DNA from: Phyto melanocephala
Taxonomy: Eukaryota > Arthropoda > Insecta > Diptera > Rhinophoridae
Direction: 5' to 3'
DNA length: 64,000 nt
Assembly (NCBI GenBank): GCA_941918925.1
Contig: OW799235.1
Coordinates: 36,354,701 to 36,418,700, forward strand
Position numbers and translations under genes: made by a program. The notes under the pieces were generated by a model, which was not told the DNA's origin, did not search any database, and saw only the letters and a program-made list of their open reading frames with translations. Positions 7,076-64,000 of this stretch are shown one piece after another (the stretch's first letter is position 1; each line of letters starts with the position of its first letter).

Positions 7076-7329
7076 CTTTGTTTTATTATTCGGGGATCCT
7101 ACCCCTAGCGTTTTTCGCCTCCCGCCAGGACACAAAGAACAGCCGCTCCTAACATGGAGACAGACGCTGACCAGGAAGCCGCCCAATGTGGGTCAGACGC
7201 TCCTGGATTTGGATATAAAAGTGAAACTCTGTGTGTGTGTGTGTGTGTTAGCTATAGACTCCGAAACTGTAAAACCGATCGGGCTCAAACTTTGGTAAGT
7301 TGTTGTACACATACCAGGGAGTGTTTATG

Positions 7330-7985
7330 GGTGAAAAAAAAAGGGCGGTGCCACGCCCATAAAAATTAGTTATCATTTTTAGCTACTTGCACTTGACCGA
7401 TTTTTCTGAAACTTTGCACACATATCGAGCTGTCATGACTAAATAATTTCGTGATAAGAAAAGTGGGCGGGGCCACGCCCCTAAAAAAGTTTTAATTTTG
7501 AGGTACTTGCACTGGACCGATTTTTATGAAACCTTGCACATATACTAAGCTGTCACAACCATATAATTTCGTGACTAGAAAAGTGGGCAGGGCCACGCCC
7601 ATAAAAAAAGGTTATAATTTTGAGTTACTTGCACCAGACCGCTTTTTCTGAAACTTTGCACACATATTGAGCTGTCATAGCTAAATAATTTCGTGATTAG
7701 AAAAGTGGGCAGTGCCACGCCCATAAAAAAAGGTATCATTTTGAGGTACTTACACTGGACCGATTATTCTGAAACTTTCCACACATATTGAGCTGTTATG
7801 ACTTTACAATTTCCTGACTAAAAAAGTGGGCAGGGCCACGCCCATAAAAACAATTATAATTTTGAGGTACTTGCACTGGTCCGATTCTTCTGAAACTTTG
7901 CACACATATTGAGCTGTTACGACTTTACAATTTCGTGATTAGAAAAGTGGGCAATGCCACGCCCATAAAAAATTATAATTTTTAG
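7330..7985 (+). repeat. Tandem units of about 121 bp inside H1 copy 1
   Basis: Six units share the words gtgggc, gccacgccc, acttgcac, ctgaaactttgcacaca and gagctgtca. The word gccacgccc or its variant recurs at 7350, 7472, 7592, 7714, 7835 and 7956, a period of 120-122 bp. Other H1 copies carry four to six such units. Confidence 0.85.
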
Positions 7986-8189
7986 GTTTTTGCACTTGAT
8001 ATTCAATTAAAATTCAGAATGCATTTTGATTCATTAAGGGGCGTAGCAACGCGCGCCGGGTTTGGCTAGTATCTTATAACCATTATATTAAAGTATCATG
8101 AACATCTTATGACTAGAAGTAAACAGTAATAATTTTTGATCCACAAAATCATATCACTGCATTAAAAAATTTTTATTTATTTATTCTAT

Positions 8190-12986: not shown

Positions 12987-13640
12987 CTAGCAAAATATCC
13001 GCTACTTCGGTGGTGCAGTTCTTACTATTTATTGAATACTAAAGTTTCCCTCTTTAGTTTTATGTAAAAAAAACACTATAAGGACCTGTCTATGCTTCTG
13101 AGTTTAAAAATTTTAGCTTCACAAATTAAAAAAATGCAAAAATAAAAAAAGTAACATTTTGTCCTTCTTTATAATTTTCAAGGTCAACTTAAATTATTAG
13201 TACCTAATATCAGATATATTCTAAAACATAAAACTACACAAAAATGCTATATAACTGGGAAGAAGTATCTTTTTGGTTGCTCATGACTTTCTTGAGTCTC
13301 ACCAAGGATCAATAGTCTTTAATTTCAAAGCTCTAGCTTCCCAAACGTAAAAAGTACCATAAAAATGCGAAGAAGTACCTTTTGGGTAGCTCATATCATT
13401 TCAATCAAAAGTTCGATCAAATGTCACTTATTTCACAATTCTAGCTTCGTAAGCGTAAAAAGTACAAAAAGAACTATGAAACTGTAAAAGTACCTTTTTG
13501 GACATTCATAATATTTGCAGTCTTAACTCTATTACTATTATCTTTAATTTCAAAATCCTACCTATGTAAACTTAGAAAATACAAAAAGTACCATAAAAAG
13601 TCCCTTTTGTGTTTTCCATGTCAATGTACAAATTCAAAAT
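12987..13640 (-). mobile_element. Helitron-like family H2, degraded copy, reverse orientation
   Basis: The complement of 12987-13030 reads into 'gaagtagcgg...gctag', the same 3' end as the big array at 50960-50994, and is followed by T, as expected for CTAG|T. Further right, diverged ~118-bp units appear in reverse ('taccataaaaatgcgaag', 'gtacctttttgg'). The 5' limit is not visible. Confidence 0.55.
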
Positions 13641-14948: not shown

Positions 14949-16236
14949 GGTTTTTACTCTCAAACTAACTGTTTTTAGAGTCAACTAAAATTTTTTACAA
15001 TTCAAACTCAATTTTTTTCAAAGCAAATTAAATTTCATTCAAACCAAACGAAATTATTTTTAACTTAAATCAAACTTTTTGCAAATCATATTCAATCGTT
15101 TTTATTTTAAATTCATTATTTTTCACAATTAATTAAATTTTGTTTAACCTCAAATTAAATTTATTTTAATTAAACGAAAAATACTTCATTCATTTAATAC
15201 CATTGAATATAGACAAAGTTTTTATTAATTGCTATATAAATTACTTATTGCAACGGTTCTCCAGATGCAGCTAATGACAAAGCCATGGTCATATCAACAT
15301 AATAATTGTTGCAATCTGAAGGTGTTACCGATTCCACGGATTGCTTAATTATGGCTACCAAATCCATATTACTCTCTGGATCAGCTAACAAATTACGTGC
15401 AGAGAGTTTAGTTTTTGAGAAAACTTTTTCTATTGGGTTCAGCATAGGGGAGTATGGAGGAAGAAAAACTAAGATATGCCCGGACTCAACAATTTTATCT
15501 TTCACCACCTGAGTTTTGTGTATCTTTGCATTGTCAAGGATCAACCAAGCACCTGTGATGTTGCATTCAGCTAATTTGTTAAATAATTCTTCAAGGAAAG
15601 ATGTGAAAATATTGGTATTAACGGTGGAATGGGCAATTACTTTTTTATGCAAAATACCATGTATGTTCATAGCTGCAATGAGGGAAACATTTCTTCCTCT
15701 AACGGTAGGAACAATTACATGTGCTGCGGTATTTACTTTGGATCTCGCCCTGTTTCTCCGAAGGTGATAATTGAAACCGGATTCGTCAATGAATATGATT
15801 TTTTCTCTTATTTCTGGAGCGTTTTGTGCAAAATTCATTGCATACGGTATGCGTCGTTGTATTGTAACATCGCAATTTAAGCGATCTATATTAATTGTGG
15901 CAGTTTTTAAGGTGATTCGCAGATATTTTAATGCATTGTGTATACTTGTTGTACTTAAATCCACATTATGGATTTCTCGAATCTTTTCCCGAATGCCTTT
16001 TAATGTTATACATGGATTTCTTTCAATGATCTCTTCAATTTTATCCAATATTACGGAAGTCAATTTTGAGTGACGTCTTCCACCACGTTTTTTTATGGCA
16101 ACACAACCGTCCTTCTTGTAGCGATTTATAATGGATGTAGCTGTATTTTTATTTATATCAGCAAATTCGGCTGATTCAATGATGGTTTTCCCTTCTTCAT
16201 AAAACTTAATTAAAATATTCTTTTTATCTAAGCTAA
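14949..16236 (-). mobile_element. Tc1-like transposon with long TIR, truncated copy
   Basis: From GGTTTTTACTCTCAAACT at 14949 the sequence is the complement of the right end and coding region of the complete copy at 28791-31059. I count only about five differences over roughly 1.29 kb. Homology stops at 16236, exactly before the TC that starts Helitron-like copy 2; the missing left part is not found on the other side of that element. Confidence 0.85.
15245..16236 (-). pseudogene. Tc1-like DD34E transposase, lacks the N-terminus
   Basis: The frame is open from the junction at 16236 to the stop at 15245-15247, about 330 codons. Its last 270 or so residues appear identical to the transposase at 29612-30763, including IIFIDESGF, WLILDNAKIH and SPMLNPIEKVF (catalytic D, D and E). 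Two residue differences from that copy lie upstream in the first helix-turn-helix region (N to K, G to D). About 54 residues and the promoter side are missing, so it is probably not expressed. Confidence 0.85.
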
Positions 16237-16256
16237 TCTATATATATAAAAGTGAA

Positions 16257-16295
<39 letters not shown>

Positions 16296-16876
16296 GCTAT
16301 AGACTCCGAAACTGTAAAACCGATCGAACTCAAACTTTGGCAAGTTGTTGGACACATACCAGGGAGTGTTTATGGGTGAAAAAAAGTGGGCGGAGCCACG
16401 CCCATAAAAAATTAGTTATCAGTTTTAGCTACTTGCACTTGACCGATTTTTCTGAAACTTTGCACACATATCGAGCTGTCATGACTAAATAATTTCGTGA
16501 TAAGAAAAGTGGGCGGGGCCACGCCCCTAAAAAAGTTTTAATTTTGAGGTACTTGCACTTGACCGATTTTTCTGAAACTTTGCACACATATTGAGCTGTC
16601 ATGGCTTTATAATTTCGTGATTGAAAAAGTGGGCAGGGCCACGACCATAAAAATAGTTATAATTTTGAGTTACTTGCTCTGTACCGATTTTTGTGAAACT
16701 TTTCACTCATATTGAGTTGTCATGACTCTACAATTTCTTGATTAGAAAAGTGGGCAGTGCCACGCCCATTAAAAATTTTTTTTAATTTTTAGCTTTTTGC
16801 ACTTGAAATTCAATTTAAATTCAAAATGCATTTTTATTCATTAAAGGGCGTAGCAACGCGCGCCGGGCTTTTCTAG
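16237..16876 (+). mobile_element. Helitron-like element H1, copy 2
   Basis: Starts TCTATATATATAAAAG, has (GT)16, then the conserved stretch 'agctatagactccgaaactg', four ~121-bp units with gccacg(c/a)cc, and ends GCGTAGCAACGC...CTAG. Flanked by A (16236) and T (16877). No coding capacity. Confidence 0.8.
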
Positions 16877-17350
16877 TTTAAAATAAGAATCAAAGATATC
16901 TGCGCACGAAAAATTTTTGAAAACTTAGCTGTATGAAAAATCAGCTAACAACACAAATTAAAAAAAATTAACAAAATTAAAACAAGTATAATGTTCCCGG
17001 GTTGAAAAATTAAAATACTGTATTTTATAAAAGTATAAAACACTTGATAAAGTCTCGTCAATAATATTTTTAAAAAGACAAAAACAGAACTAAAGCGCAT
17101 CTCGTAAGGGTGTTAGAAACTGATTATTAATAGATTTAGATTTTGAATGGACAAAAAACAAATAATCTGGCATCCGTACTCATTATTCTAATTTTTCAAA
17201 TCTATTTATACTGCCTACATTTATAGAATGCCATACAAATCCCTTCATTACAAATGTGTTTGTGTTTCAACAAATTGTCTATGGTTGTAAGTTAAAATAT
17301 TTGGATCATTAGAAACGTTATTCCTCTAAACTAATACAAAGAAACCAGTA
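16877..17350. other. Unassigned AT-rich DNA
   Basis: Nothing recognised. In particular it does not continue the Tc1-like element that stops at 16236. Confidence 0.5.
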
Positions 17351-22097: not shown

Positions 22098-22618
22098 TTA
22101 TACCCTTCACCTGTGGTGCACAAGGGTATATATAGCTTTGTCATTCCGTTTGTAATTTCTACAATTTTCATTTCCGACCCCATAAATTATATATTTTCTG
22201 AAAGCTTATGAATAGAGGAGTCGATTAAGCCCTGACCGTCTGTCCGTGTGTTGGTTGAAATCAACTTTTAGAAGCAACTATATGTTCCTCAGATCTCTAT
22301 ATGGTATCAATAATTTAAAAAAATAATTTAAAAAAAATTTTAAAAAATTTTTTAAAAATTTTTTCAAAAAAATTTTTTAAAAAAATTAAAAAAAAATATA
22401 AAAAAAAGAATAACAAAATATAAATAATATATTATATAAAATAAAATTTTTTTGGCTCAGCTGGGATTCGATGCCACATTTATTCTAACCAGTATATACA
22501 TATGTACGTATTTGATATGAGATGAATGGTGATACAAACAATTGTTATTGCATGACTACACGTTGTGAAGGGTATATAAGATTCGGCACGGCCGAATATA
22601 GCACTGTTACTTGTTTTT
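22098..22618 (+). repeat. Family A dispersed repeat, short copy
   Basis: Begins 'ttatacccttcacctgtggtg', carries 'ctgtccgtgtgttggttgaaa' (GTCY remnant), an A/T-only stretch at 22313-22450, the motif ctcagctgggattcgatgcc at 22455, and ends 'gaagggtatataag' + ATTCGGCACGGCCGAAT + 'atagcactgttacttgttttt'. The last hairpin and tail define the family. Confidence 0.8.
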
Positions 22619-23173
22619 ATTTACAATTTTTATTGTTTTGTTTAAAATCAGTCGTAATCTAGAAGTGCAATTAAAAACCACAAATGAAAAACAAAAGCAA
22701 ATAATAAATATTAAATTCAATTGTTGTGCAATATCATTGGAAAACTTCTAGAACTTATTATGTTCAGCGATTAAAAACCACAAAATGTTTGATCTTAATT
22801 TTTTTTCTTATTTATCCACATAAGCCACATTTTAAATAAAAAAAAAACAATAAAAAACCTTCAGTACGTTTCCGTGGCCGACACATGTATAATCGTAATT
22901 TGAACTATTTCAGATCTCAGTTGATCACATGTTTGTACATACATACATACATATATAACACATATAAGAAAATGCTTTTTATAAGTTGTTTGTTTGTTCC
23001 GCAATTTCATAATTACTTTTTGAACCTCTCTTACAACGAAACGTTTTTATAATTCATGAAACATTTTTTGGACTTGTGCGGGAAAGGTTTTTTAACAAAG
23101 TCCAAAATTTAAAGGACCGGATAAGAATACACGAAAATAACTTTTGAAAATTGTTTTACTCATAATGTAGTTA
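22619..23173. other. Unassigned AT-rich DNA
   Basis: A (CATA)n run at about 22935-22956. No gene. Confidence 0.45.
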
Positions 23174-24410: not shown

Positions 24411-25139
24411 CTAGCCAAACCCGGCGCGCGTTGCTACGCACCTTAATGAATCGAAATGCATTCTGAATTTAATTGAATGTCAAGTGCAAAAACCTAAAAA
24501 TTATAATTTTTTTATGGGCGTGGCCCTGCCCACTTTTTTAATCACGAAATTGTAAAGTCATAACAGCTCAATATGTGTGAAAAGTTTCAGAATAATCGGT
24601 TCAGTGCAAGTACCTCAAAATGATACTTTTTTTTATGGGCGTGGCACTGCCCACTTTTCTAATCACGAAAGTATTTAGTCATGACAGCTCAATATGTGTG
24701 CAGAGTTTCAGAAAAATCGGTCTTGTGGAAGTACCTCAAAATTATAACCTTTTTTTATGGGCGTGACCCTGCCCACTTTTCTAAACACAAAATTATATGG
24801 TTATGACAGCTTAGTATATCTGCAAAGTTTCATAAAAATCGGTCTAGTGCAAGTACCTCAAAATTAAAACTTTTTTAGGGGCATGGCCCCGCCCACTTTT
24901 CTTATCACAAAATTATTTAATCATGACAGCTCGATATGTGTGCAAAGTTTCAGAAAAATCGGTCAAGTGCAAGTAGCTAAAGCTGATAACTAATTTTTAT
25001 GGGCGTGGCCCCGCCCACTTTTTTCCACCCATAAACACTCCCTGGTATGTGTACAACAACTTGCCAAAGTTTGAGTCCGATCGGTTTTACAGTTTCGGAG
25101 TCTATAGCTAACACACACACACACAGAGTTTCACTTCGA
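24411..25139 (-). mobile_element. Helitron-like element H1, copy 4
   Basis: On the minus strand it starts TCGAAGTGAAACTC (25139), has (GT)7, five ~121-bp units and ends at CTAG (24411). In element orientation it is preceded by A (complement of 25140) and followed by T (complement of 24410). It lacks the TATATATATAAA leader of the other copies. Confidence 0.8.
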
Positions 25140-26050
25140 TAATCCATTATAGACATCTTTTTAGGAGGTGGGCGTTTAAGTTCTCTTCTCACTTATTTAT
25201 TCTGCCATTGTTATAATATAAGCCAGAAAAATATATAAGTGAAACTTTATCGTCATACTTCTAATCTTGTCGGTTTTCTATATCTTTGAATTTAATTGAT
25301 AGTGGAATATGTAACGTAGGCGTGTCAAAGTAATTTCGATAATGATCCTAACTTTGGTATTTCAATGTAGTCCTTTATTCATCCAAAATCTTTGTCATAT
25401 AAGTAGTTATGTGAGGAAGGCGTGTCACATTCATTTTCAAGTATTATAATAACATTGATTAGAAAGCATCATCATATTCTATCGGTTTTATGATCTTTTA
25501 AATTTCATTAACAGTAACAGTAGTGGTGACAAAGTAGTTTCTGCTTAGAAATCCAACTTAGATATTTCAATATAGAGTCCTTTATTTTTTCATAATCTTT
25601 GCCAAAAAAGATATTCTAAGAATTTAAGATGAAACGGTTTATGGAAGGTGGATGTAAAAGGGCGAGTGTCCGTCATTACAAATCCATTGATCAAGAAGCA
25701 ATGCTTTTAAAATTTCAGAATCGTATGTCTAATTTTGTGAGTTTTATTAAGTTTAACATTTTAAATAGATCAAAAAAGACTGCGTAATAAAAGTTTTTTT
25801 TTTACATTTTGATCTAAAAGTCCTTTGTTAATGTATGGATTTAATGAGTTTTCGGCAAATCTCGGGAAATATACTTGTGAAATTTTATCGCTCCGTGTTG
25901 TTGCGTTTAGCCGCAATCGAATTTTATTTGATGTAAGAAATATATTTTATTAGGACCTACTTACTCTTGCATCTCTTCCTTATAAACCTACTTAGCTCAT
26001 TTTCAATACCAAATATATCTGATCTTCTGATCTATATATATAAAAGTGAA

Positions 26051-26119
<69 letters not shown>

Positions 26120-27120
26120 GCTATAGACTCCGAAACTGTAAAACCGATCGGGCTGAAACTTTGGTAAGTTGTTGTACACATACCAGGGAGTGTTTATGGG
26201 TGAAAAAAAGTGGGCGGGGCCACGCCCATAAAAAATTAATTATCATTTTAAGCTACTTGCACATGACCGATTTTTCTGAAACTTTGCACACATATCGAGC
26301 TGTCATGACTAAATAATTTCGTGATAAGAAAAGTGGGCGGGGCCACGCCCCTAAAAAAATTTTAATTTTGAGGTACTTTCACTGGACCGATTTTTCTGAA
26401 ACTTTGCACAGATATTGAGCTGTCATGACCTTATAATTTCGTGATTAGAAAAGTGGGCGGGGCCACGCCCATAAAAAATTAGTTATCAGTTTTAGCGACT
26501 TGCACTGGACCGAACTTTCTGAAACTTTGCAAACATACTGAGCTGTCATGACTTCACTTTTTCGTCATTAGAAAAGTGGGCAGTGCCACGCCCATTAAAA
26601 AAAGGTATCATTTTGAGGTACTTGCACTGGACCGATTTTTCTGAAACTTTGCACACATATTGAGTTGTCATGACTATACAGTTTCGTATTTAGAAAAGTG
26701 GGCAGTGCCACGCCCATAAAAACAATTATAATTTTGAGGTACTTGCACCGGACCGATTTATCTGAAACTTTGCACACTTATTGAGCTGTCATGACTATAC
26801 AGTTTCCTAATTAGAAAAGTGGGCAGTGCCACGCTCATAAAGAAAAAGTTATAGTTTTTAGCCTTGCACTTGATATTCGATTAAAATTTAGAATGCGATT
26901 AAAATTCATGAAGGGGCGTAGCAACGCGCGCCGGGATTGGCTAGTATATTATAAATATTCTAGCAAGCCTTACTTTTTCGATTTCAACAGACGGATGGAC
27001 ATAACTAAATCATCTCAAAATAAAATGGGATCTAAAATGAATATTTCGATATGTTTACAAATGGAATGACAAAATAAATATACCCCCAACCTTTTTTTGG
27101 TAGTGGCTATAAAAATTGTT
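25140..27120 (-). repeat. Family B repeat, split by H1 copy 3
   Basis: 25160-25650 holds the complement of the family B interior ('aggcgtgtca', 'gtcctttattcat'). 26945-27120 holds the complement of its 5' end, from 'tcaacagacggatggacata' to 'atacccccaacctttttttgg'. Between them lies Helitron-like copy 3 (26031-26944), so the insertion is younger than the repeat. Confidence 0.65.
26031..26944 (+). mobile_element. Helitron-like element H1, copy 3
   Basis: Starts TCTATATATATAAAAG after an A (26030), has the longest GT tract, (GT)31 at 26056-26117, six ~121-bp units, and ends GCGTAGCAACGCG...GATTGGCTAG before a T (26945). Non-autonomous, no open frame of note. Confidence 0.82.
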
Positions 27121-28790: not shown

Positions 28791-31059
28791 GGTTTTTACT
28801 CTCAAATTAACAGTTTTTTGATTCAAATTAAATTTTTTACAAATCAATTTAATTTTTTTCAAAGCAAATTAAATTGTATTTAAAACTAATAAAATAATTT
28901 TTACCCCAAATTCATTTTTTTCCATTTTAGATTCGTTTTATTTAATTTGTGATTCAAAGTTTTTCTTTTCAAATTCAATTTATTTAATTTCAAATTAATT
29001 TCTTCTTGAATTCAATATAAGAAACTTTAACTGCCGTATTCATAAAAAATATATTAGGTTTATTAAAAGCTTATTTGACAAATTTATCTACAACATCTAC
29101 CAAAAAAGCCTTTAATAAACCTAAAATATTTTTTTTTTTATTTTTTATATGTATACATATTTTCTTTTTATCTTTTATTATTGTTTTATTTATTACACTG
29201 GAAAATATTTTCCAGTATTCTACCGTGAAAGTAGAAGAGTAATGAGATATAGCTTTGCACTCGTCTACCACATACAAATGCAACATTACAATAATGAAAT
29301 AGCTCATTAGTTAATCTTTCCATTAAGGAGACCAAGTATCTTACTATACTAAAATATTCCTTAGTTGACTTTAATCTTGTGTATGATTTCCTGTATTATT
29401 TGTAAAAATTAAGGTATGTTTTCTTAACTGGAAAATAATGTTGAGCTGGTCACCTTGTTTAAATGTACAACTTTTTGTAACAGTAAACATTAAAATTAAA
29501 CAAATGTTAATAAGTCAGTTATTTGGTAGATCGAGAGAAATTATAGTTGTGCAATTTGTATGAAGTTCAAATTTTTACGTCTAAAAATACTCAATAAACG
29601 AAAAAAAAATTATGTTGTCATCCATCGTAGAAAGTAATCGCGCCACAAGTTCTGCTGTATCGAATGAGCGAAATTATCGTAGGATTCATCTTCTAACAGA
29701 TAGTTCTTCAGAAGAAATTATAACAGAAATATCTACGCCTAACCGTAGAAGACGTGAAAAATATAGCCATATTAGCTTAGATAAAAATAATATTTTAATT
29801 AAGTTTTATGAAGAAGGGAAAACCATCATTGAATCAGCCGAATTTGCTGGTATAAATAAAAATACAGCTACATCCATTATAAATCGCTACAAGAAGGACG
29901 GTTGTGTTGCCATAAAAAAACGTGGTGGAAGACGTCACTCAAAATTGACTTCCGTAATATTGGATAAAATTGAAGAGATCATTGAAAGAAATCCATGTAT
30001 AACATTAAAAGGCATTCGGGAAAAGATTCGAGAAATCCATAATGTGGATTTAAGTACAACAAGTATACACAATGCATTAAAATATCTGCGAATCACCTTA
30101 AAAACTGCCACAATTAATATAGATCGCTTAAATTGCGATGTTACAATACAACGACGCATACCGTATGCAATGAATTTTGCACAAAACGCTCCAGAAATAA
30201 GAGAAAAAATCATATTCATTGACGAATCCGGTTTCAATTATCACCTTCGGAGAAACAGGGCGAGATCCAAAGTAAATACCGCAGCACATGTAATTGTTCC
30301 TACCGTTAGAGGAAGAAATGTTTCCCTCATTGCAGCTATGAACATACATGGTATTTTGCATAAAAAAGTAATTGCCCATTCCACCGTTAATACCAATATT
30401 TTCACATCTTTCCTTGAAGAATTATTTAACAAATTAGCTGAATGCAACATCACAGGTGCTTGGTTGATCCTTGACAATGCAAAGATACACAAAACTCAGG
30501 TGGTGAAAGATAAAATTGTTGAGTCCGGGCATATCTTAGTTTTTCTTCCTCCATACTCCCCTATGCTGAACCCAATAGAAAAAGTTTTCTCAAAAACTAA
30601 ACTCTCTGCACGTAATTTGTTAGCTGATCCAGAGAGTAATATGGATTTGGTAGCCATAATTAAGCAATCCGTGGAATCGGTAACACCTTCAGATTGCAAC
30701 AATTATTATGTTGATATGACCATGGCTTTGTCATTAGCTGCATCTGGAGAACCGTTGCAATAAGTAATTTATATAGCAATTAATAAAAACTTTGTCTATA
30801 TTCAATGGTATTAAATGAATGAAGTATTTTTCGTTTAATTAAAATAAATTTAATTTGAGGTTAAAAAAAATTTAATTAATTGTGAAAAATAATGAATTTA
30901 AAATAAAAACGATTGAATATGATTTGCAAAAAGTTTGATTTAAGTTAAAAATAATTTCGTTTGGTTTGAATGAAATTTAATTTGCTTTGAAAAAAATTGA
31001 GTTTGATTTGTAAAAAATTTTAGTTGACTCTAAAAACAGTTAGTTTGAGAGTAAAAACC
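28791..31059 (+). mobile_element. Complete Tc1-like transposon with long inverted ends
   Basis: The left end reads GGTTTTTACTCTCAAA and the complement of the right end (31059) reads the same, both next to TATATA, so the TA target is hidden in a TA run. Similarity between the ends continues for roughly 200 bp ('ttcaaagcaaattaaatt') but with many differences. Length is about 2.27 kb, with one intact gene. A copy missing its left part is at 14949-16236. Confidence 0.88.
29612..30763 (+). CDS. Tc1-like DD34E transposase, intact, 383 residues
   Basis: This enzyme would cut the element at its ends and insert it at TA sites. Residues 56-95 form the first helix-turn-helix (DKNNILIKFYEEGKTIIESA and following). 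A basic GGRRHS linker near 105-110 resembles the GRPR box of Tc1 proteins, and a second helix-turn-helix spans about 113-165. The catalytic domain has D204 (IIFIDESGF), D288 (WLILDNAKIH) and E323 (PYSPMLNPIE); 34 residues separate the last two, the DD34E of Tc1. Length is slightly above the usual 340. The ATG at 29612 is preceded by an A-rich stretch and is the first in frame. No stop or frameshift. It is nearly identical to the copy at 15245-16236, so the family moved recently. Possibly active; proof would need transcripts or excision. Confidence 0.9.
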   Translation: MLSSIVESNRATSSAVSNERNYRRIHLLTDSSSEEIITEISTPNRRRREKYSHISLDKNNILIKFYEEGKTIIESAEFAGINKNTATSIINRYKKDGCVAIKKRGGRRHSKLTSVILDKIEEIIERNPCITLKGIREKIREIHNVDLSTTSIHNALKYLRITLKTATINIDRLNCDVTIQRRIPYAMNFAQNAPEIREKIIFIDESGFNYHLRRNRARSKVNTAAHVIVPTVRGRNVSLIAAMNIHGILHKKVIAHSTVNTNIFTSFLEELFNKLAECNITGAWLILDNAKIHKTQVVKDKIVESGHILVFLPPYSPMLNPIEKVFSKTKLSARNLLADPESNMDLVAIIKQSVESVTPSDCNNYYVDMTMALSLAASGEPLQ

Positions 31060-33251: not shown

Positions 33252-34263
33252 AAGAAAACTTGAAATATGAAAAACGAGTTTAAGAAGTTTTGCTCTGTTT
33301 AAAACTGGAAAATACAAATCCAATTTAAGATTCTATTTGATTTCGAATCTAATCCAAAAACAGACAAAAAAACAATTCAAATACTTAAAATCTAATTTTT
33401 AAATTCGGCATGATTTTCAAACCTGGCACCATGCAGTGCCGCTACTCCTGCCATTAATTCTTGTAATGGAAACCTTTATGCCAATTGTGAAACTGACATG
33501 CTTGATTTTCAAACAGTCAATCCTATAGTGTTTAGAATGCTAAAAGCATCAATTTTGCACAGTCATCAATGTTACTTTGTGTACAAAATGTAAACATTTT
33601 GCATGGTTATGGCATTAGTTAAAAGGTGAAACAGAAACTAAAAGGAAAATGTAACAACAGTTTAAGATTAAATAAATTCGATGCTATTAATTTCCATTAG
33701 AATTCAATAAAAATTGAATTAAGAATATAAATGTACTTTCATTTTATTTCGAGCGAAACACAAAAGTCCATACTTAAATGACTAGAAACTTTTGCTGTTT
33801 TGTGAATTTAAAATTCAAAACAACACATGTTGTATAAAATTGATTAAATAAAAGGATTCTCTACCTTAAAATTTGGTCTCGTAATATGAAGTACATAAGC
33901 ATAACCAAAAAGTAAAAAAAAAAACTGAAAGTCATTTAAATGATGCGTATCTGTAGCTAAAAACAATATTTTAAATAAAAGAAACCTCACAAAATTCAAG
34001 GTCTTTTGTTAAATTTTATTCTAAGTCTCCGCTCAGACTCGTGTAGATATAAAATTATAACACAAACAAAAAAAATGTATAAATTGAAAGATCCCAAAAA
34101 AGAACATTAATAATTATCAAAACACATGCAATCTTATTTATTTTTTTGTTTCGTTCATTTTTCTAAAGTTTCTTCGTAATGACATAAGATACATTTTATT
34201 AAATCATGCATCCCATCCATCTCGATTCATTTTCGACATACAATTTTGTAAGGTTTTAGAAAA
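33252..34263. other. Unassigned AT-rich DNA
   Basis: Nothing supported. Confidence 0.45.
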
Positions 34264-35032
34264 AAACAAGTAAAAGCGCTATATTCGGCCGTGCCGAATC
34301 TTATATACCCTTCACAACGTGTAGTCATGCAATAACAGTAAATTCACGTATGTATGTTAAAAAAAAAAAAAAAAATAAAAAATAAAAAAAAAGTTTAAAA
34401 AAAAAAAATTTAAAAAAAAAATTAAAAAAAAAAAAATTATTATATACATATATAATATATATAAAACAAAAAAAAAATAAAAAAAAAATTAAAAAAAAAA
34501 AATAAAAAAAAATAATAATAAAAATATATATAATATATTAACAAAAAAATAAAAAAAAATAAAAAAAAAATTAAAAAAAAAAATTTTAAAAAAATTTAAA
34601 AAAAAATTTTTTTGCCTCAGCTGGGATTCGATGCCACGTTTTCTCTAACCAGTATACACGTTTGTATGTATGTATGTTGTTGTTGTAATGTTGTTTTTAT
34701 GAAAAGAAAATCGAGGTGGTCGTGGGTTTTTGCTCATATCTCAGTTGTTTATGTACCGATGTTTCTGATTTTCAATACCGATCTACTCCCGAAAATTTCT
34801 GATATTTTAATACCTTACCCGGGTCCAACCTATGTCGGGGGGCTTCAAAAAGTTGATTTCAACATACACACGGACAGACGGACAGACGGACAGACGGTCA
34901 GGGCTTAATCGACTCCTCTATTCATAAGCTTTCAGAAAATATATACTTTATGGGGTCGGAAATGAAAATTGTAGAAATTTCACACGGAATGACAAACCTA
35001 TATATACCCTTTTTCACTGTGTGAAGGGTATA
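34264..35032 (-). repeat. Family A dispersed repeat with internal inversion
   Basis: In reverse orientation the tail 'aacaagtaaaagcgctat' and hairpin ATTCGGCCGTGCCGAAT lead into 'cttcacaacgtgtagtcatg'. At the other end is the GTCY tract (as 'ggacagacggacagacgg') and 'cactgtgtgaagggtataaaa'. The segment with ctcagctgggattcgatgcc (34617) points the opposite way relative to the element ends when compared with 22455. Confidence 0.75.
34355..34612. repeat. A/T-only low-complexity tract
   Basis: About 260 bp almost wholly of A and T, mostly A runs, inside the family A copy. Similar but shorter tracts lie in the other copies (22313-22450, 47460-47570). Confidence 0.9.
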
Positions 35033-36300: not shown

Positions 36301-36910
36301 AATGGATAAAACTTATAATGAATAAATCCACTAAGAGGGGATTTTTAAGATTCGAACCACAAGGAGGTAGAAATGGATAATTTTGACAATTTACATCTGA
36401 TTAACTAAAAAAAGATCATCGTTATTTGTTCAAAAATTAAGCTGATATGATTCTGGTTCTTTTTTTAATGTTAATGTTTAATGTCTATACTTTCTTTTGA
36501 TACCCATGTAACATCCTAACAAATAAACACAGGGGAAAAATAAATTATGTTATTTACTCACGTATAATGGATAAAAATTACCTAGATATTTGAATTTCTT
36601 TATATTGATCCAATTTAAGATTTAAAATGATAAATGAATCTACTATTTTAAAATTAAGGATTTTTGATCAAAGTTGAGATTTAAGATTTAATAAATTTAT
36701 TATTTTAAAATAATGGGCTTAAGTTCCAAGCTAATATTGACAAAGTTATAGGCAAATCAAAAGGCATTTTGTTAATTTTTATAACCCCTCTGTTGTTAAA
36801 CGATTTCAAAGGCCCAAATGATTTTTTCACACATGCATAAAATTAAGATTGCTTACTTTTTAAAATTTCAGCATGAAAACTGACAATGAAATAAATACAT
36901 AACGTCGCGT

Positions 36911-46365: not shown

Positions 46366-46599
46366 CATTAGCGCAAAATCATTTCAAATGGGTTTTTATT
46401 CACAAAAATATTTTGTTTTACCAAAAGTTTATATATAATTCAATTTTTTATTTATGAAATTAAACTAGTGCAAACCAAATTGATTATTTATTTTATTTTT
46501 ATATTAAGGATATTAATAATTATAATTAAATTATAATAACTAATAAAGAGAAAGGGAGTATTAGTATCTAAGGCTTTCGACACTTAAGGTATATACATA

Positions 46600-47322
46600 C
46601 AGTTGCCCAATAAAGTTTACATACAGCACCATAAATATGATTTTAACGAAATTTACTGAAGATTTAACACATTTTTTTATGTTAAGTCCTATAAATTAGT
46701 TAAATTTAAAAATAAGATTCAAAACATCTATAATTGTGCACATTTTTTGTACCAAAATGGAAGTATTTGTAATTTGGTGCCCAAAAAAGTATACATACAC
46801 CAAAAACACATATCTAAAAGCAAGAAGAAAATACGTCTCTAAGTAACGGTATTTCGTTTTTTACTTATTTTTTTTTACCAGTAATAAAAGAAAACAAAAT
46901 AATTTAGCAGCTGAAGTGAGTTTGTAGTTTATTATGATTAGAATGTCGCAGAATTAACAAAAACGCAAAGAAATTTCGCAGGATATTACAAAATTGAGAA
47001 ATGAATAAAAATCATATAGAAAAATTGCAAATATTGTTGGAATTAGCCGCTCTACAGTTCAAAATATTATAAAAAATTATAATATTACAAATGCAACAGA
47101 AAATAAATATTGATCAGGCAGGCCTACATGGCCTTCAGTGCGCGAAAAGCGGAATGTTGTCAGACTCTTAACAAATCATCCAAGAACAAATGCTGTGAAT
47201 ATCGCAAAAGACCTTGAAATCTCTATACAAATAAATATTCAACCCGAAACTGTGCGCAATGTTTTGAAAGCTAATGGTATTCCATGAAAAAAGCCGCGTA
47301 TTAGCGAAACTAATTAAAAACA
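46600..47322 (+). mobile_element. Tc1-like element, 5' part only
   Basis: The end 'cagttgcccaataaagttta' is followed about 160 bp later by the related direct repeat 'ttggtgcccaaaaaagtata', the IR-DR arrangement of some Tc1 elements. The element is cut at 47322 by a family A copy. Confidence 0.65.
46943..47318 (+). pseudogene. Tc1-like transposase, DNA-binding part, decayed
   Basis: From MSQN, over several in-frame stops, the translation reads KSYRKIANIVGISRSTVQNI (first helix-turn-helix), SGRPTWPSVREKRNVV (GRPR-type linker), HPRTNAVNIAKDLEIS and QPETVRNVLKANGIP (second helix-turn-helix). This is the bipartite DNA-binding domain of Tc1 transposases; the catalytic domain is missing. It is unrelated to the intact copy at 29612 beyond superfamily level. 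Confidence 0.7.
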
Positions 47323-47323
47323 A

Positions 47324-47572
47324 GTAAGAGCGCTATATTCGGCCGTGCCGAATCTTATATACCCTTCACAACGTGTAGTCATGCAATAACAATTGTTTGT
47401 ATCACCATTCATCCCATATAAAATACATGCATACGTACACGTTAGAATAAATGAGCCAAAAAAATTTTATTTTATTAAATATATAATTTATATTTTATTA
47501 TTTTTTTTTTTAAATTTTATTAAAAAATTTTTTAGAAAAATTTTTAAAAAATTTTTTTAAATTTATAAATGT
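47324..47572 (-). repeat. Family A copy, 3' half
   Basis: Tail 'aacaagtaagagcgctat', hairpin ATTCGGCCGTGCCGAAT and 'cttcacaacgtgtagtcatg' in reverse orientation, then an A/T-only tract. It is cut at about 47572 by the start of the 118-bp array. Confidence 0.75.
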
Positions 47573-50430
47573 TATGGTCGACCAAAAAGGTACTTTTTTG
47601 AATTTTTGTGGTACTTTTGGTATTTTCTACATTTATGAAGGTAGGAATGTACAATCAAGGACTATTGATTCCAGGTGAGACTAAAAATGTTATGGGCGAA
47701 TAAAAAGGTACTTATTTGAATTTTTATGGTACTTTTTGTATTTTCAACGTTTGCGAAGCTAGAATTTTGAAATTAGTGACAATTGATACAAGGTGAGACT
47801 AAAAACGTTATGGGCGACCAAAAAGGTACTTTTTTGAATTTTTGTGGTACTTTTGGTATTTTTTACATTTATGAAGGTAGGATTGTACAATCAAGGACTA
47901 TTGATTCCAGGTGAGACTAAAAATGTTATGGGCGAACAAAAAGGTACTTATTTGAATTTTTATGGTACTTTTTGTATTTTCAACGTTTATAAAGATAGGA
48001 TTATACAATCAAGGACTATTGATTCCAGGTGAGACTAAAAATGTTATGGGCGACGAAAAAGGTACTTTTTTGAATTTTTATGGTACTTTTTGTATTTTCA
48101 ACGTTTGCGAAGCTAGAATTTTAAAATAAGTGGCTATTGATACAAGGTGAGACTTAAAATGTTATGGTCGACCAAAATAGTACTTTTTTGAATTTTTATG
48201 GTACTTATTGTATTTTCTACGTTTATGAATTTAGGATTGTACAATCGAGGACTATTGATTCCAGGTGAGACTCAAAATGTTATGGGCGACGAAAAAGGTA
48301 CTTTTTTGAATTTTTATGGTACTTTTTGTATTTTCAACGTTTGCGAAGCTAGAATTTTGAAATTAGTGACAATTGATACAAGGTGCGACTAAAAATGTTA
48401 TGGGCGACCAAAAAGGTACTTTTTTGAATTTTTGTGGTACTTTTTGTAATTTCAACGCTTATGAAGGTAGGATTGTACAATAAAGGACTATTGATTCCAG
48501 GTAAGACAAAAAATTTTTTGTGTGACCAAAAAGGTACTTTTTTGAATTATTATGGTACTTTTTGTATTTTCAACGTTTGCGAAGCTAGAATTTTGAAATT
48601 AGTGACTATTGATACAAGGTGAGACTAAAAATGTTATGGGCGACCAAAGAGGTACTTTTTTGAATTTTTGTGGTACTTTTGGTATTTTTTACATTTATGA
48701 AGGTAGGATTGTACAATCAAGGACTATTGATTCCAGGAGAGACCAAAAATGTTATGGGCGAACAAAAAGGTACTTATTTGAATTTTTATGGTACTTTTTG
48801 TATTTTCAACGTTTATAAAGATAGGATTATACAATCAAGGACTATTGATTCCAGGTGAGACTAAAAATGTTATGGGCGACGAAAAAGGTACTTTTTTGAA
48901 TTTTTATGGTACTTTTTGTATTTTCAACGTTTGCGAAGCTAGAATTTTAAAATAAGTGGCTATTGATACAAGGTGAGACTTAAAATGTTATGGTCGACCA
49001 AAATAGTACTTTTTTGAATTTTTATGGTACTTATTGTATTTTCTACGTTTATGAATTTAGGATTGTACAATCAAGGACTATTGATTCCAGGTGAGACTCA
49101 AAATGTTATGGGCGACGAAAAAGGTACTTTTTTGAATTTTTATGGTACTTTTTGTATTTTCAACGTTTGCGAAGCTAGAATTTTGAAATTAGTGACAATT
49201 GATACAAGGTGCGACTAAAAATATTATGGGCGACCAAAAAGGTACTTTTTTGAATTTTTGTGGTAGTTTTTGTAATTTCAACGCTTATGAAGGTAGGATT
49301 GTACAATAAAGGACTATTGATTCCAGGTAAGACAAAAAATATTATGTGTGACCAAAAAGGTACTTTTTTTAATTATTATGGTACTTTTTGTATTTTCAAC
49401 GTTTGCGAAGCTAGAATTTTGAAATTAGTGACTATTGATACAAGGTGAGACTAAAAATGTTATGGGCGACCAAAAAGGTACTTTTTTGAATTTTTGTGGT
49501 ACTTTTGGTATTTTTTACATTTATGAAGGTAGGATTGTACAATCAAGGACTATTGATTCCAGGTGAGACTAAAAATGTTATGGGCGAACAAAAAGGTACT
49601 TATTTGAATTTTTATGGTACTTTTTGTATTTTCTACGTTTATGAATTTAGGATTGTACAATCAAGGACTATTGATTCCAGGTGAGACTCAAAATGTTATG
49701 GGCGACGAAAAAGGTAATTTTTTGAATTTTTATGGTACTTTTTGTATTTTCAACGTTTGCGAAGCTAGAATTTTGAAATTAGTGACAATTGATACAAGGT
49801 GCGACTAATAATGTTATGGGCGACCAAAAAGGTACTTTTTTGAATTTTTGTGGTACTTTTTGTAATTTCAACGTTTATGAAGGTAGGATTGTACAATAAA
49901 GGACTATTGATTCCAGGTAAGACAAAAAATGTTATGTGTGACCAAAAAGGTACTTTTTTGAATTATTATGGTACTTTTTGTATTTTCAACGTTTGCGAAG
50001 CTAGAATTTTGAAATTAGTGACTATTGATACAAGGTGAGACTGAAAATGTCATGGGCAACCAAAAAAGTACTTTTTTGATTTTTATGATACTTTTGGTAT
50101 TTTCTACGTTTATGAAGGTGGGATTGTACAATGAAGGACTTTTGATTCCAGGTGAAACTAAAAATGTTATGGGCGACCAAAAAGTACTTTTTTAAATTTT
50201 TATGGTACTTTTTGTATTTTCTACGTTTATGAAGGTAGGATCTTACAATCAAGGACTTTTGATTCCAGGTGAAACTGAAAATGTTATGGGCGACCACAAA
50301 GGTACTTTTTTGAATTTTTATGGTACTCATTGTATTTTTAACGTTTGCGAAGCAAGAATTTCGAAATTAGTGATACAAGGTAAGGTTAAATATGTTATGG
50401 GCGATCAAAAAGGTACTTTTTGAATTTTAA
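47573..50430 (+). repeat. 118-bp satellite array with 826-bp higher-order repeat
   Basis: About 24 units share the words 'atgttatgggcgaccaaaaa', 'ggtactttt', 'gattgtacaatcaagg' and 'gattccaggtgagact'. Two unit types differ in the middle ('atgaaggtaggattgtacaa' against 'gcgaagctagaattttgaaa'). Near-identical segments recur exactly 826 bp apart (47844/48670/49496; 48198/49024; 48434/49260), that is seven units. The third block lacks two units (49614 and 49850 lie 590 bp after 49024 and 49260). The many short open frames here are by-products of the repeat, not genes. Confidence 0.9.
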
Positions 50431-50994
50431 TGGGAATTTTTGTATTTCCTACGTTTATAAAGCTAAAATAGTGAAATAAAGGATTATTTATTCAAGTTTA
50501 GAATTAAAATGATATTAAAAACACATAAAAAGCCTTTTTGCATTTTTATTGTACTCTTTGTATTTTTACTTTTGTAAACATAGATTCTTAAAATTAGTGT
50601 TTTTTGATCCGAGGTCTAACTCCTAATATTATGGACGACCAAAATTACTTTTTCTCTTTTTATATATTTTGTATACATAGAATTCTGAAAAAAGGTAATA
50701 ATAAACCAAGTGAAAGTTTTAGTGAAGGAAAAAATTTTACTTTTATTATTTTTAGGGTAATTTTTGCAAAATATGAATCTTAATTTTTGAAACTCAGTAG
50801 CATTGATCTTGCTTTTAGTTAGGAAATATATGCCCGATATATCCTTACTCTACTTTTTATATTTCTAAGTAAATTGAATCAAAGATACAACTGTTCATAA
50901 ATTGAACCAAAAATATTTAATAATTATAAATAGAACTTGATTATTCAATAAATAGTAAGAACTGCGCTAACGAAGTAGCGGGTTAAATGCTAGT
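47573..50994 (+). mobile_element. Helitron-like family H2 copy made largely of satellite
   Basis: Tandem ~118-bp units (47573 to about 50430) grade into diverged units and then the end 'aactgCGCTAACGAAGTAGCGggttaaatgCTAG'. CGCTA/TAGCG form a hairpin (50966-50981) that ends 9 bases before CTAG (50991-50994), followed by T. This is the Helitron 3' plan. The same end occurs in reverse at 12987 and, mutated, at 62643. No 5' end or Rep/helicase gene is visible, so the assignment is inferred. Confidence 0.6.
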
Positions 50995-51424
50995 TTAATA
51001 TATTTGGATACGATGGTAAACAAAAAGTATGTTTAACTAAAGTTTAAAAAACCTTTTTTTAAGAAAAAAAAATAGTTATTCGTGTTGTATGTAGACTTTA
51101 TTGTGCAACTGTATGCATGTAAAAGAGCGTTCTGGATGAATTGTAGTTAGGGCACTCGTCAAGAATATGGGCTATATTGAGCTGTATGTTACAGGTAGAA
51201 AAAACTGGCCCTTGAGTTGTTGCGAGAAGATTAAAAAATGTTAATAATTTAAAAAAAATGTTATGTCTTTGATTTTATATAACTGCATTGTATATTATTA
51301 TATATATTAATTTATTTTCAACAAAAAAGAAACAGTTTTGTATTTTATTATTTAATCTATTTTTCTAAAGCCTCTTCTTTTAGTTCGAGTTTTAATAAAC
51401 AATAAAAACATTTGCCATGTAGAA
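50995..51424. other. Unassigned AT-rich DNA
   Basis: Nothing supported. Confidence 0.45.
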
Positions 51425-51427
51425 CTG

Positions 51428-51560
51428 GGGCCGAATTACGGCATTCGAACGTGATCGAAATTTGAAAATTCTTCTTTCTTCTTCTTTCTTAAAAGAAAGC
51501 ACAGCAAACTCGATCGTTCGAGTAAAATTTCGTTCGATATCGAATGCCGTAATTCGGCCC
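51428..51560. mobile_element. Harbinger-type MITE with CTG target duplication, copy 1
   Basis: Ends GGGCCGAATTACGGCATTCG in perfect inverted orientation, flanked by CTG at 51425-51427 and 51561-51563. 133 bp, strongly foldback. Copy 2 is at 62135-62258 in the opposite orientation. Confidence 0.85.
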
Positions 51561-51879
51561 CTGGAAAATTAGTGAGGACAATATAATAAGGTTTAGACAG
51601 CACTCTCTAGACAATTCGCAAAAATACTTAAATATAACCAGAAACAATTGTTGTTGTTTTTACTTGATATTTAATTGTTTTAATAATTAAATAAAAAGTA
51701 AAAAAATTGCTACTAGAAGGATAATTGCTACTCGGAGGATAAATTAAATAAAATTTTTACTCAAGAAGCAGAATAATCAAAAAAGCGGCCAGTCTGCAAG
51801 TGAAAGTTATGGTAAGTGCACACATACATATACAAAAATTGTTTTGTTTTAAATAAAACAAAGTTTTAGTTTCATTGTA

Positions 51880-61803: not shown

Positions 61804-62288
61804 AAGGGTGGTTAAATTTTAAGGGCCGATGTTGATTTTGAATAAAACACAAATTATTTAGGAAATTATTATCATTTCTTTTTTAATGATAATATTTGTA
61901 TGGTTCAATTATGTATGGAACAAAATATCGGCCAAATGGCCCCCGCGACCTCAACGGCACACCTCGATCCGATAGTCCAAATTTGTAATAACATTGCTGA
62001 TGCTCAATTGTTTGGCACGATGATGAGTCGAAGTTGACTGTTTTTTTGCCACACTATCGCGATAAACAGCAATGCTTCTCATTTAACGAATTTAGAAGGC
62101 ATTCATAGATGTTCTAACATTTTATACAGACCTGGGGCCGAATTACGGCATTCGATATCGATCGAAATTTTACTCGAACGATCGAGTATGCTTTAGGTAT
62201 ATAGATTCTAATAAGAGTTTTCAAATTTCGATCACGTTCGAGTGCCGTAATTCGGCCTCTGTTTTAAATTTAAAATTTAACCACCCTC
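61804..62288 (-). mobile_element. DD41D mariner-like relic inside family B
   Basis: AAGGGTGGTTAAATTTTAAG at the left and its near-complement at 62288, TA on both sides. On the minus strand, 62060-61909 codes for VITNLDYRIEVCR, a stop, then GRGGHLADILFHT and the terminal stop (61909-61911): the C-terminus of the same transposase family as at 11748-12581. A CTG MITE (62135-62258) interrupts it. Confidence 0.75.
62135..62258. mobile_element. Harbinger-type MITE with CTG target duplication, copy 2
   Basis: Left GGGCCGAATTACGGCATTCG; right ends ...CCGTAATTCGGCCT; CTG at 62132-62134 and 62259-62261. Its left interior matches the right interior of copy 1 (51428-51560), so the two are inverted relative to each other. 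124 bp. Confidence 0.85.
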
Positions 62289-62642: not shown

Positions 62643-64000
62643 ACTAACATATTACCCGCTACTTCGATTGCGCAGTTCTCACTATTTATTCAATACTCAA
62701 GTGATATTTTAGTTTTTAAATATTTTTTTTGGTTAAATTTATGAAAACTTTTTTCTGTAATTCATTTTATTTAGAAAACTAAAAAGTACGGTAAGGATAT
62801 ATATATTCCTAACTGAACCAAGATCAATGCTACTTAGTTTCAAAATCTAAGATTCATAAGTTCAGAATATGCAAAAAAGACTATAAAAATAATATAAGTA
62901 ACATTTTGTCCTTCACTAAAATCTTCAAAGTCAACTCGGATTATTAGTAACTACTTGTAGAATTCTATGTATACAAAATATAAAAAAAAAATTAGAAAAA
63001 GTAATTGTTCGGTCGTCCATAACATTTAAAACTTAACCTCGAATCAATAATCGCTAATATTAAGAATCTATGCAAAAAGTACAATAAAAATACGAAAGGG
63101 CACCTTTTGTGTCGCCCATATCATTTTCATTCTCAACATGAATCGGTAGTCCCTTAAGTTCGAGATGCACCTTTTTAATATGTCAAATAAGTATTAAGTA
63201 ATATTCCCAAATTATTTAAAATCCTTGTAACTGACAATATTTCTCATCATGTATCACTTTACCATGTTCATCCCTACATGGCTTCCATAAAGGATGTTCT
63301 ACCGTAACAAATTTATTGCAACCTACAACTATAATAAATAGTGGTTTCGTGCAACAAAAACAAACTGGCACCATAAAAATTCCAAATAAAGTAAAATTTT
63401 TAAATATTTTAATGTACGCTGATGATGGTAATATTTTTCCATATTTTTCTTGGATATGGATGCCTTTTATTCTTAGCTTAATTTAAATTTTAAACGTATG
63501 TATGTGTTTTTAAAGAGGAAATCATTTAAATGTAAATTGTTCATTGGGTTATCACCAATTCGAAAAGAATCGCTAAATTTCATTCAACCCATTTCATTAA
63601 CAGTTAGCAAAGCACGTAGCATTATTGGTTTTATTAAAATATGGGCTAAAGAATTCTCTGATCCATATAATACAAAGCAACTTTTTAAATCTCGTAAGGA
63701 CTGTTTTGGAATATGCATCTATTGTTTGGAATTTAACTTACTGCGCAGAAACAGTTCTTGCTAATTATCTATATATCTCATATTTTAATAAATATACAAA
63801 AAGTAGCATAAAAATTCAAAAACATACCTTTTTGGTCGCTCATAACATTTGCAGTCGCCCCTCGTATTAATATTCACTAATTTCACAATTATAGCGTCAT
63901 AAACGTTAAAAATACAAAAACTACCATAGAAATGCGAAAAAGTACCATTTTTTCGCTCATAATACACAATACCATTTAATGTGAAAAAGAACCTTTATTT
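62643..64000 (-). mobile_element. Helitron-like family H2, diverged copy running off the window
   Basis: The complement of 62643-62700 gives 'gcgcaatcgaagtagcgggtaatatgttag', the H2 3' end with CTAG mutated to TTAG. Reverse, diverged ~118-bp units follow at 63000-63150 and 63780-64000 ('cataacatttgcagtcgccc', 'aaaatgcgaaaaagtacc'). A LINE fragment lies between. Confidence 0.5.
63180..63780 (+). pseudogene. LINE reverse transcriptase fragment within H2
   Basis: Broken frames read KVKFLNILMYADDGNIF, which carries the catalytic YADD of LINE reverse transcriptases, then ISLTVSKARSIIGFIKIWAK, EFSDPYNTKQLF and, in the next frame, VRTVLEYASIVWNL. These are the usual blocks after the palm ('GFIKRW...F.DPY..K.L..SLVRP.LEYGS..W'). 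Jockey/CR1-like clade is likely. Frameshifts and missing blocks show decay. Confidence 0.65.

Follow-up and report, generated by a model that had tools for sequence, protein, structure and literature searches.

A ~118-bp tandem array in a dipteran genome and its assignment to a dispersed element ending in a Helitron-type 3′ terminus

An array of ~118-bp repeats in Phyto melanocephala lies close to a sequence that resembles the 3′ terminus of a rolling-circle transposon, which raises the question of whether the array is a free-standing satellite or part of a dispersed element. The analysis covered one 64,000-nucleotide stretch of contig OW799235.1 (hereafter the window), in which three copies of the terminus, A, B and C, were compared; the sample is therefore three copies from one genome. 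The window DNA is dipteran and blow-fly-like in sequence. It contains an intact Tc1-like transposase that is 84% identical to a Lucilia sericata protein and a BEL/Pao-type polyprotein that is 79% identical to one from Calliphora vicina.

The tandem array and its 3′ terminus

The array of copy A was delimited by TRF at 47567–50566, with a period of 118 and 25.5 copies, and 25 consecutive units were scored by nhmmer between 47568 and 50505, of which units 24 and 25 are already decayed. Beyond 50505, nhmmer detected decayed units at 50512–50622 (E 2e-9) and 50625–50675 (E 0.17). A third decayed unit, at ~50720–50830, is unscored in A but scores in B (E 0.045) and C (E 0.00026), and its limits in A were placed by hand through alignment with these two copies. 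Decayed units thus occupy ~320 bp after the array, and a further ~100 bp without units separates them from the terminus. The first-pass annotation had described about 24 units of ~118 bp running directly into the terminus; the units are confirmed (25 scored and three more decayed), and the direct junction is not. A strong GC skew (0.32) across the array (48001–50000) presumably derives from the repeat unit. A weak match to the 118-bp unit at 36635–36812 (E 0.1 and 0.16) was dropped, a terminus match being absent nearby.

47568..50505, plus strand: copy A tandem array, 25 units of 111–118 bp with a 7-unit (826-bp) higher-order period
50512..50830, plus strand: copy A decayed edge units e3, e2 and e1, hand-set limits, order matched in C and less cleanly in B
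50934..50993, plus strand: copy A 3′ terminus, conserved 60 bp, CTAG end, then T
50965..50980, plus strand: copy A stem CGCTA/TAGCG with a 6-base loop, intact in A only
12987..13046, minus strand: copy B 3′ terminus, CTAG end, then T
62644..62703, minus strand: copy C 3′ terminus, TTAG end, then T

The terminus of A is laid out as CGCTA (50965–50969), a loop (50970–50975), TAGCG (50976–50980), a 9-base spacer and CTAG (50990–50993), followed by T. The element end was originally placed at 50994, which is the flanking T; CTAG stops at 50993. The terminus patterns matched three places in the window against 0.00 expected from 100 shuffles, and a terminal profile built from the three copies recovered all three at E ~1e-19 and nothing else in the whole window at E below 0.77. 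These results bear out the earlier report of two reversed ends, which lie at 12987 and 62644. A weak partial look-alike of the terminus (E 0.77) lies at 63740–63768 on the minus strand, just past the upstream units of copy C, and is perhaps a second, decayed end. The terminus pattern also gave one match each in viral_contigs and genome_contigs. Both were dismissed because about two matches are expected by chance in genome_contigs (19 fixed bases) and because the repeat unit has no match at E 1 or better at either locus; three further patterns gave 0 matches in viral_contigs.

According to the available excerpts of PMC4067079, canonical Helitrons feature a 3′ CTRR, a hairpin near the 3′ end, a 5′ TC, insertion between A and T without target duplication and a Rep/helicase (their own or a partner's), and the Helentron, HINE and DINE-1 group features subterminal inverted repeats at both ends, insertion within TT and variable terminal T runs. 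The present 3′ ends are of the CTRR type in two of the three copies (CTAG in A and B), and copy C has TTAG. All three ends read G then T, without a common T run; a T after the end in all three has a chance probability of ~0.04 at 34% T. The stem has lost two of its five pairs in B and one of five in C, and none in A. No copy folds significantly better than shuffles (z −0.73, 0.07 and −0.16), a test of little power because two Helitron ends from the same window also give weak values (−0.19 and −1.09). By itself the hairpin carries little weight, A alone having it whole and none of the copies folding better than shuffles. The arrangement of hairpin, 9-base spacer and CTAG before T that had been read from the array therefore holds for A; in B and C the hairpin is broken, and C ends in TTAG.

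The 5′ side and the Helitrons of the window

At its 5′ edge, array A starts abruptly with a fully homogeneous unit that adjoins a shortened DINE-like repeat.

47311..47564, minus strand: shortened DINE-like repeat adjoining array A on its 5′ side; identity to 22335–22623 82%, last part low-complexity AT

The strand of this block was assigned from what we take to be the DINE-1 orientation. The block is probably a neighbour that lies outside the element. It was rejected as the 5′ end of the element, as two other copies (22600 downwards and 34262 upwards) run, by eye, to their own different end. The rest of the shortened repeat was not found in the first 300 bp past CTAG. Repeats with a TTCGGC/GCCGAA palindrome, which we take to be DINE-1/mini-me-like, occur at 22102–22617 (minus), 34262–35030 (plus), 47311–47564, 62382 (minus) and 23190 (plus); those at 22102–22617 and 34262–35030 have ACGG-type repeats and a TATACCC/GGGTATA end.

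A 5′ TC end could be recognised at neither A nor B, both possibly truncated on that side, and copy C leaves the window. The 5′ start of the in-window Helitrons, used as a query, found only the four Helitron copies themselves. A search for a subterminal inverted repeat between the last 120 bp of A and 47001–47700, a range in which the 5′ end is itself uncertain, gave a match of 11 against a null mean of 9.8, with 69 of 300 shuffles as good. The DNA upstream of A and B has no significant bases in common (55 of 500 shuffles as good in the anchored comparison and 49 of 300 in the local one). All 22 ORFs in the window with a length of 110 aa or more were negative for Rep and helicase families at E 0.01, and the one within array A (50025–50366, minus strand) has two matches only, both below curated cut-offs. 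The label is kept to a Helitron-type 3′ end, and not extended to a full Helitron, because no 5′ end, subterminal inverted repeat or Rep/helicase was found.

The window also contains short canonical-type Helitrons in four copies, with (TG)n and ~121-bp central tandem repeats.

7219–8069, plus strand: short canonical-type Helitron
16237–16876, plus strand: short canonical-type Helitron
26031–26944, plus strand: short canonical-type Helitron
24411–25136, minus strand: short canonical-type Helitron

All four share a near-identical 3′ block ending in CTAG before T (at 8069, 16876, 26944 and 24411). Two of them (16237 and 26031) start with TC preceded by A, and 7219 and 25136 mark the start of a conserved inner block and not of the whole element. 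The 118-bp profile has no match below E 1.5 in their ~121-bp units. A second family in the window therefore has tandem repeats within CTAG-ended elements. The Helitron at 16237 adjoins a cut Tc1-like element (16087–16236, 98.7% identical to 29771–29921), and the 150 bp past its 3′ end (16877–17026) have no match to the intact Tc1. Array A, in parallel, adjoins half of a DINE-like repeat whose remainder was not found.

Edge units in common and loss of homology at the end

In all three copies the array units are continuous with the terminus region. Copy A has ~28 units, B has five and C at least five, the last being interrupted and cut by the window.

13076..13625, minus strand: copy B, five decayed units
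63792..64000, minus strand: copy C upstream units, where the array leaves the window
62804..63156, minus strand: copy C decayed edge units e3–e1, with the terminus 75% identical to A over ~520 bp

Copy C is broken by ~630 bp without a unit match (63157–63790), and no further decayed units were found at E <0.2 within this gap or upstream of B. BLAST aligned A with C at 75% over ~520 bp, repeats included, up to the element end, and A with B at 84% over the last 61 bp before it. The copies differ by ~25–35%.

The decayed units next to the terminus follow largely the same order in A, B and C. A plain identity matrix of these units is uninformative (shuffled mean 74%), and z-scores were used instead, on nine units, together with a tree of 37 units. 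All nine same-position pairs across copies scored at z 4.9–13.3 (mean 8.9), against means of 3.7 for pairs of unlike position from different copies and 4.3 for pairs from one copy; the registers compared were picked post hoc, because the limits of the decayed units were set by hand, from profile hits and alignment, after the alignment had been viewed. The ranges overlap, some different-position pairs reaching 7–9 (C_e3–C_e2 8.9 and B_e3–B_e2 8.0), and A_e2 scores only 4.9 with B_e2, against 5.8 with C_e3 and 5.1 with B_e3. In the tree, the e1 units of A, B and C cluster with a support of 0.995 and the e2 units with 0.917; e3 of A clusters with that of C (0.879), and their next neighbour is B_e5 and not B_e3.

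At the other side of the terminus, homology is lost. Those BLAST alignments that extend to the terminus break off at 50994 (A–B) and 50997 (A–C), within four bases of the end, and no homology starting at the element end was found by BLAST in any of the three pairs. In ungapped 60-base blocks, the last 60 bases before the end are 82–85% identical in the three pairs, and 14 of the 15 blocks after it are unremarkable (shuffle p 0.06 or more). The remaining one, the first A–B block past the end, is raised (31/60, where shuffles give 21.5; p 0.004, the smallest value among the 15 blocks, or ~0.06 once all 15 are allowed for). This block is read as chance in AT-rich DNA, yet no other result speaks against a sharp end. 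When alignments were anchored at the end and extended into the flank with gaps, none of the three pairs did better than shuffles (60, 145 and 68 of 200 as good). Homology continuing past CTAG, which the first-pass annotation had named as the observation that would speak against it, was thus seen neither by BLAST nor by anchored extension in any pair, with the mild A–B exception.

Because the alignments run up to the end, the order of edge units is common to the copies and homology is lost at the end, the sequence evidence makes the repeats of array A a component of a dispersed element whose 3′ end is of the Helitron type. The proposal that the satellite is not free-standing is upheld in this respect, with the terminus in three of three copies, ordered edge units in common and no BLAST homology from the end onwards. 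Segmental duplication of one locus, in place of transposition, would account for the raised A–B block and for a palindromic repeat that A and C each have ~400 bp beyond the end (51417–51564 and 62131–62269; 149 bp at 80.5%, E 2e-37). We regard it as highly improbable: the palindromic repeat is a separate inverted-repeat element that sits at unequal distances (424 bp in A versus 375 bp in C), the 600 bp downstream otherwise give only short A–C matches (E 0.004 or weaker), two A–B matches (both E 0.53) and no B–C match at E 1, and the anchored extensions point the same way. An inverted match of 56 bp (82%) is present between the DNA upstream and that downstream of array A (46590–46644 and 51066–51121). 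As little credence is given to the view that the satellite stands by itself and that chance insertion brought a Helitron 3′ end into it or next to it. The array in A indeed has no recognisable 5′ element end, but chance insertion would yield different neighbours, and the decayed units ahead of the terminus are largely alike in kind and order in the three dispersed copies.

Growth of the array and relation to known elements

The seven-unit blocks are found in A only. Among units 1–21, mean identity is 96.0% at a shift of seven units versus 83–93% at the other shifts from 1 to 14, and units 4 and 11, 5 and 12, and 7 and 14 are identical pairs; two units are apparently missing from the third block. 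Best-match identity is 94.9–100% for units 1–21 and falls toward the 3′ end in units 22–25 (89.8, 90.7, 84.7 and 78.8%). A young core (96% at the 7-unit shift) therefore lies beside an old edge that is common to copies at least 25% apart, which argues for growth in place after dispersal, and the long array in A probably grew locally in this way.

The main reading, to which we assign a probability of roughly 0.78, is that a single non-autonomous rolling-circle element gave rise to A, B and C, all of them old copies, and that A was later amplified locally. The ancestral element would have contained central tandem repeats of ~118 bp, then edge units in a set order, and finally the 60-bp 3′ terminus with the hairpin, the 9-base spacer and CTAG before T. 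A Rep/helicase encoded elsewhere would have dispersed the element by terminating replication at CTAG, a step that, like mobility itself, we infer from known Helitron biology. Copy A would then have lost, or never possessed, a recognisable 5′ end, and its inner repeats may have expanded locally to ~3 kb in seven-unit blocks by unequal exchange or a similar process. Units adjoining the 3′ end would have escaped homogenisation and decayed. The outcome in A would be a one-sided array partway from transposon to satellite.

In the original proposal, the element was instead a mobile satellite carrier, in which a long array is amplified inside an active element and transposed as such. Array and terminus do occur together in all three copies, and a published rolling-circle model, in which inner units multiply and one 3′ end is retained, provides a mechanism (Xiong et al., as cited in the excerpted text of PMC12628747). 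Copy A may, less probably, have arrived recently with its array long from the start. The copies are, however, of unequal length (~28 units, five and at least five), and near-identity is confined to the inside of A, with seven-unit blocks at 96% against a difference of ~25% between A and C near their ends. The spread of an amplified array is accordingly not borne out, and we consider the carrier unlikely. Growth of array A by faulty rolling-circle replication of an element lacking a 5′ end, the seven-unit blocks being footprints of successive rounds, is somewhat less likely; each array would have exactly one such end because the 3′ terminator is retained.

Local amplification of an old rolling-circle element, the preferred reading, has close parallels, here taken from excerpts of the papers cited. 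DINE-TR1 of Drosophila is a fly rolling-circle element whose central tandem repeats expanded and gave rise to satellite arrays (Dias et al. 2015, as cited in PMC9957191); compared by description, it differs in its unit of ~150 bp and its Helentron/DINE type with blocks A and B, whereas the present unit is 118 bp, with a CTAG-type end and no 5′ block seen. Cg_HINE of the Pacific oyster is likewise dispersed, its satellite-like arrays leading into a conserved, palindrome-containing right flank of 60 bp, but it is of the Helentron type, with subterminal inverted repeats and a TT target preference, neither of which is assigned to the present element (PMC7492417). The 'intermediate' arrays of Cg170/HindIII, with Helitron parts on one side only, are like copy A, although they are from oyster, where standalone arrays are also reported (PMC12628747). 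The non-autonomous Hel-2 Helitrons of insects and insect viruses have a 3′ CTAG, a 3′ hairpin and, in a figure legend, internal tandem arrays; they are mainly described from Lepidoptera and with both ends, including the 5′ TC (PMC4344730). The excerpted literature on blow flies does not name the present family.

The origin of satellites from the inner repeats of Helitrons, including one-sided arrays, is already published, and the present case adds another. In the excerpted papers the process is known mainly from Drosophila DINE and oyster Helentrons, to which a blow-fly-like genome and a CTAG-type end are now added. If array A did grow by faulty rolling-circle replication, a CTAG terminator with repeats would be a minimal one-ended satellite-making module in flies. 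With old common edge units and a younger seven-unit core at one locus, copy A probably represents a legible stage on the way from a dead transposon to satellite DNA.
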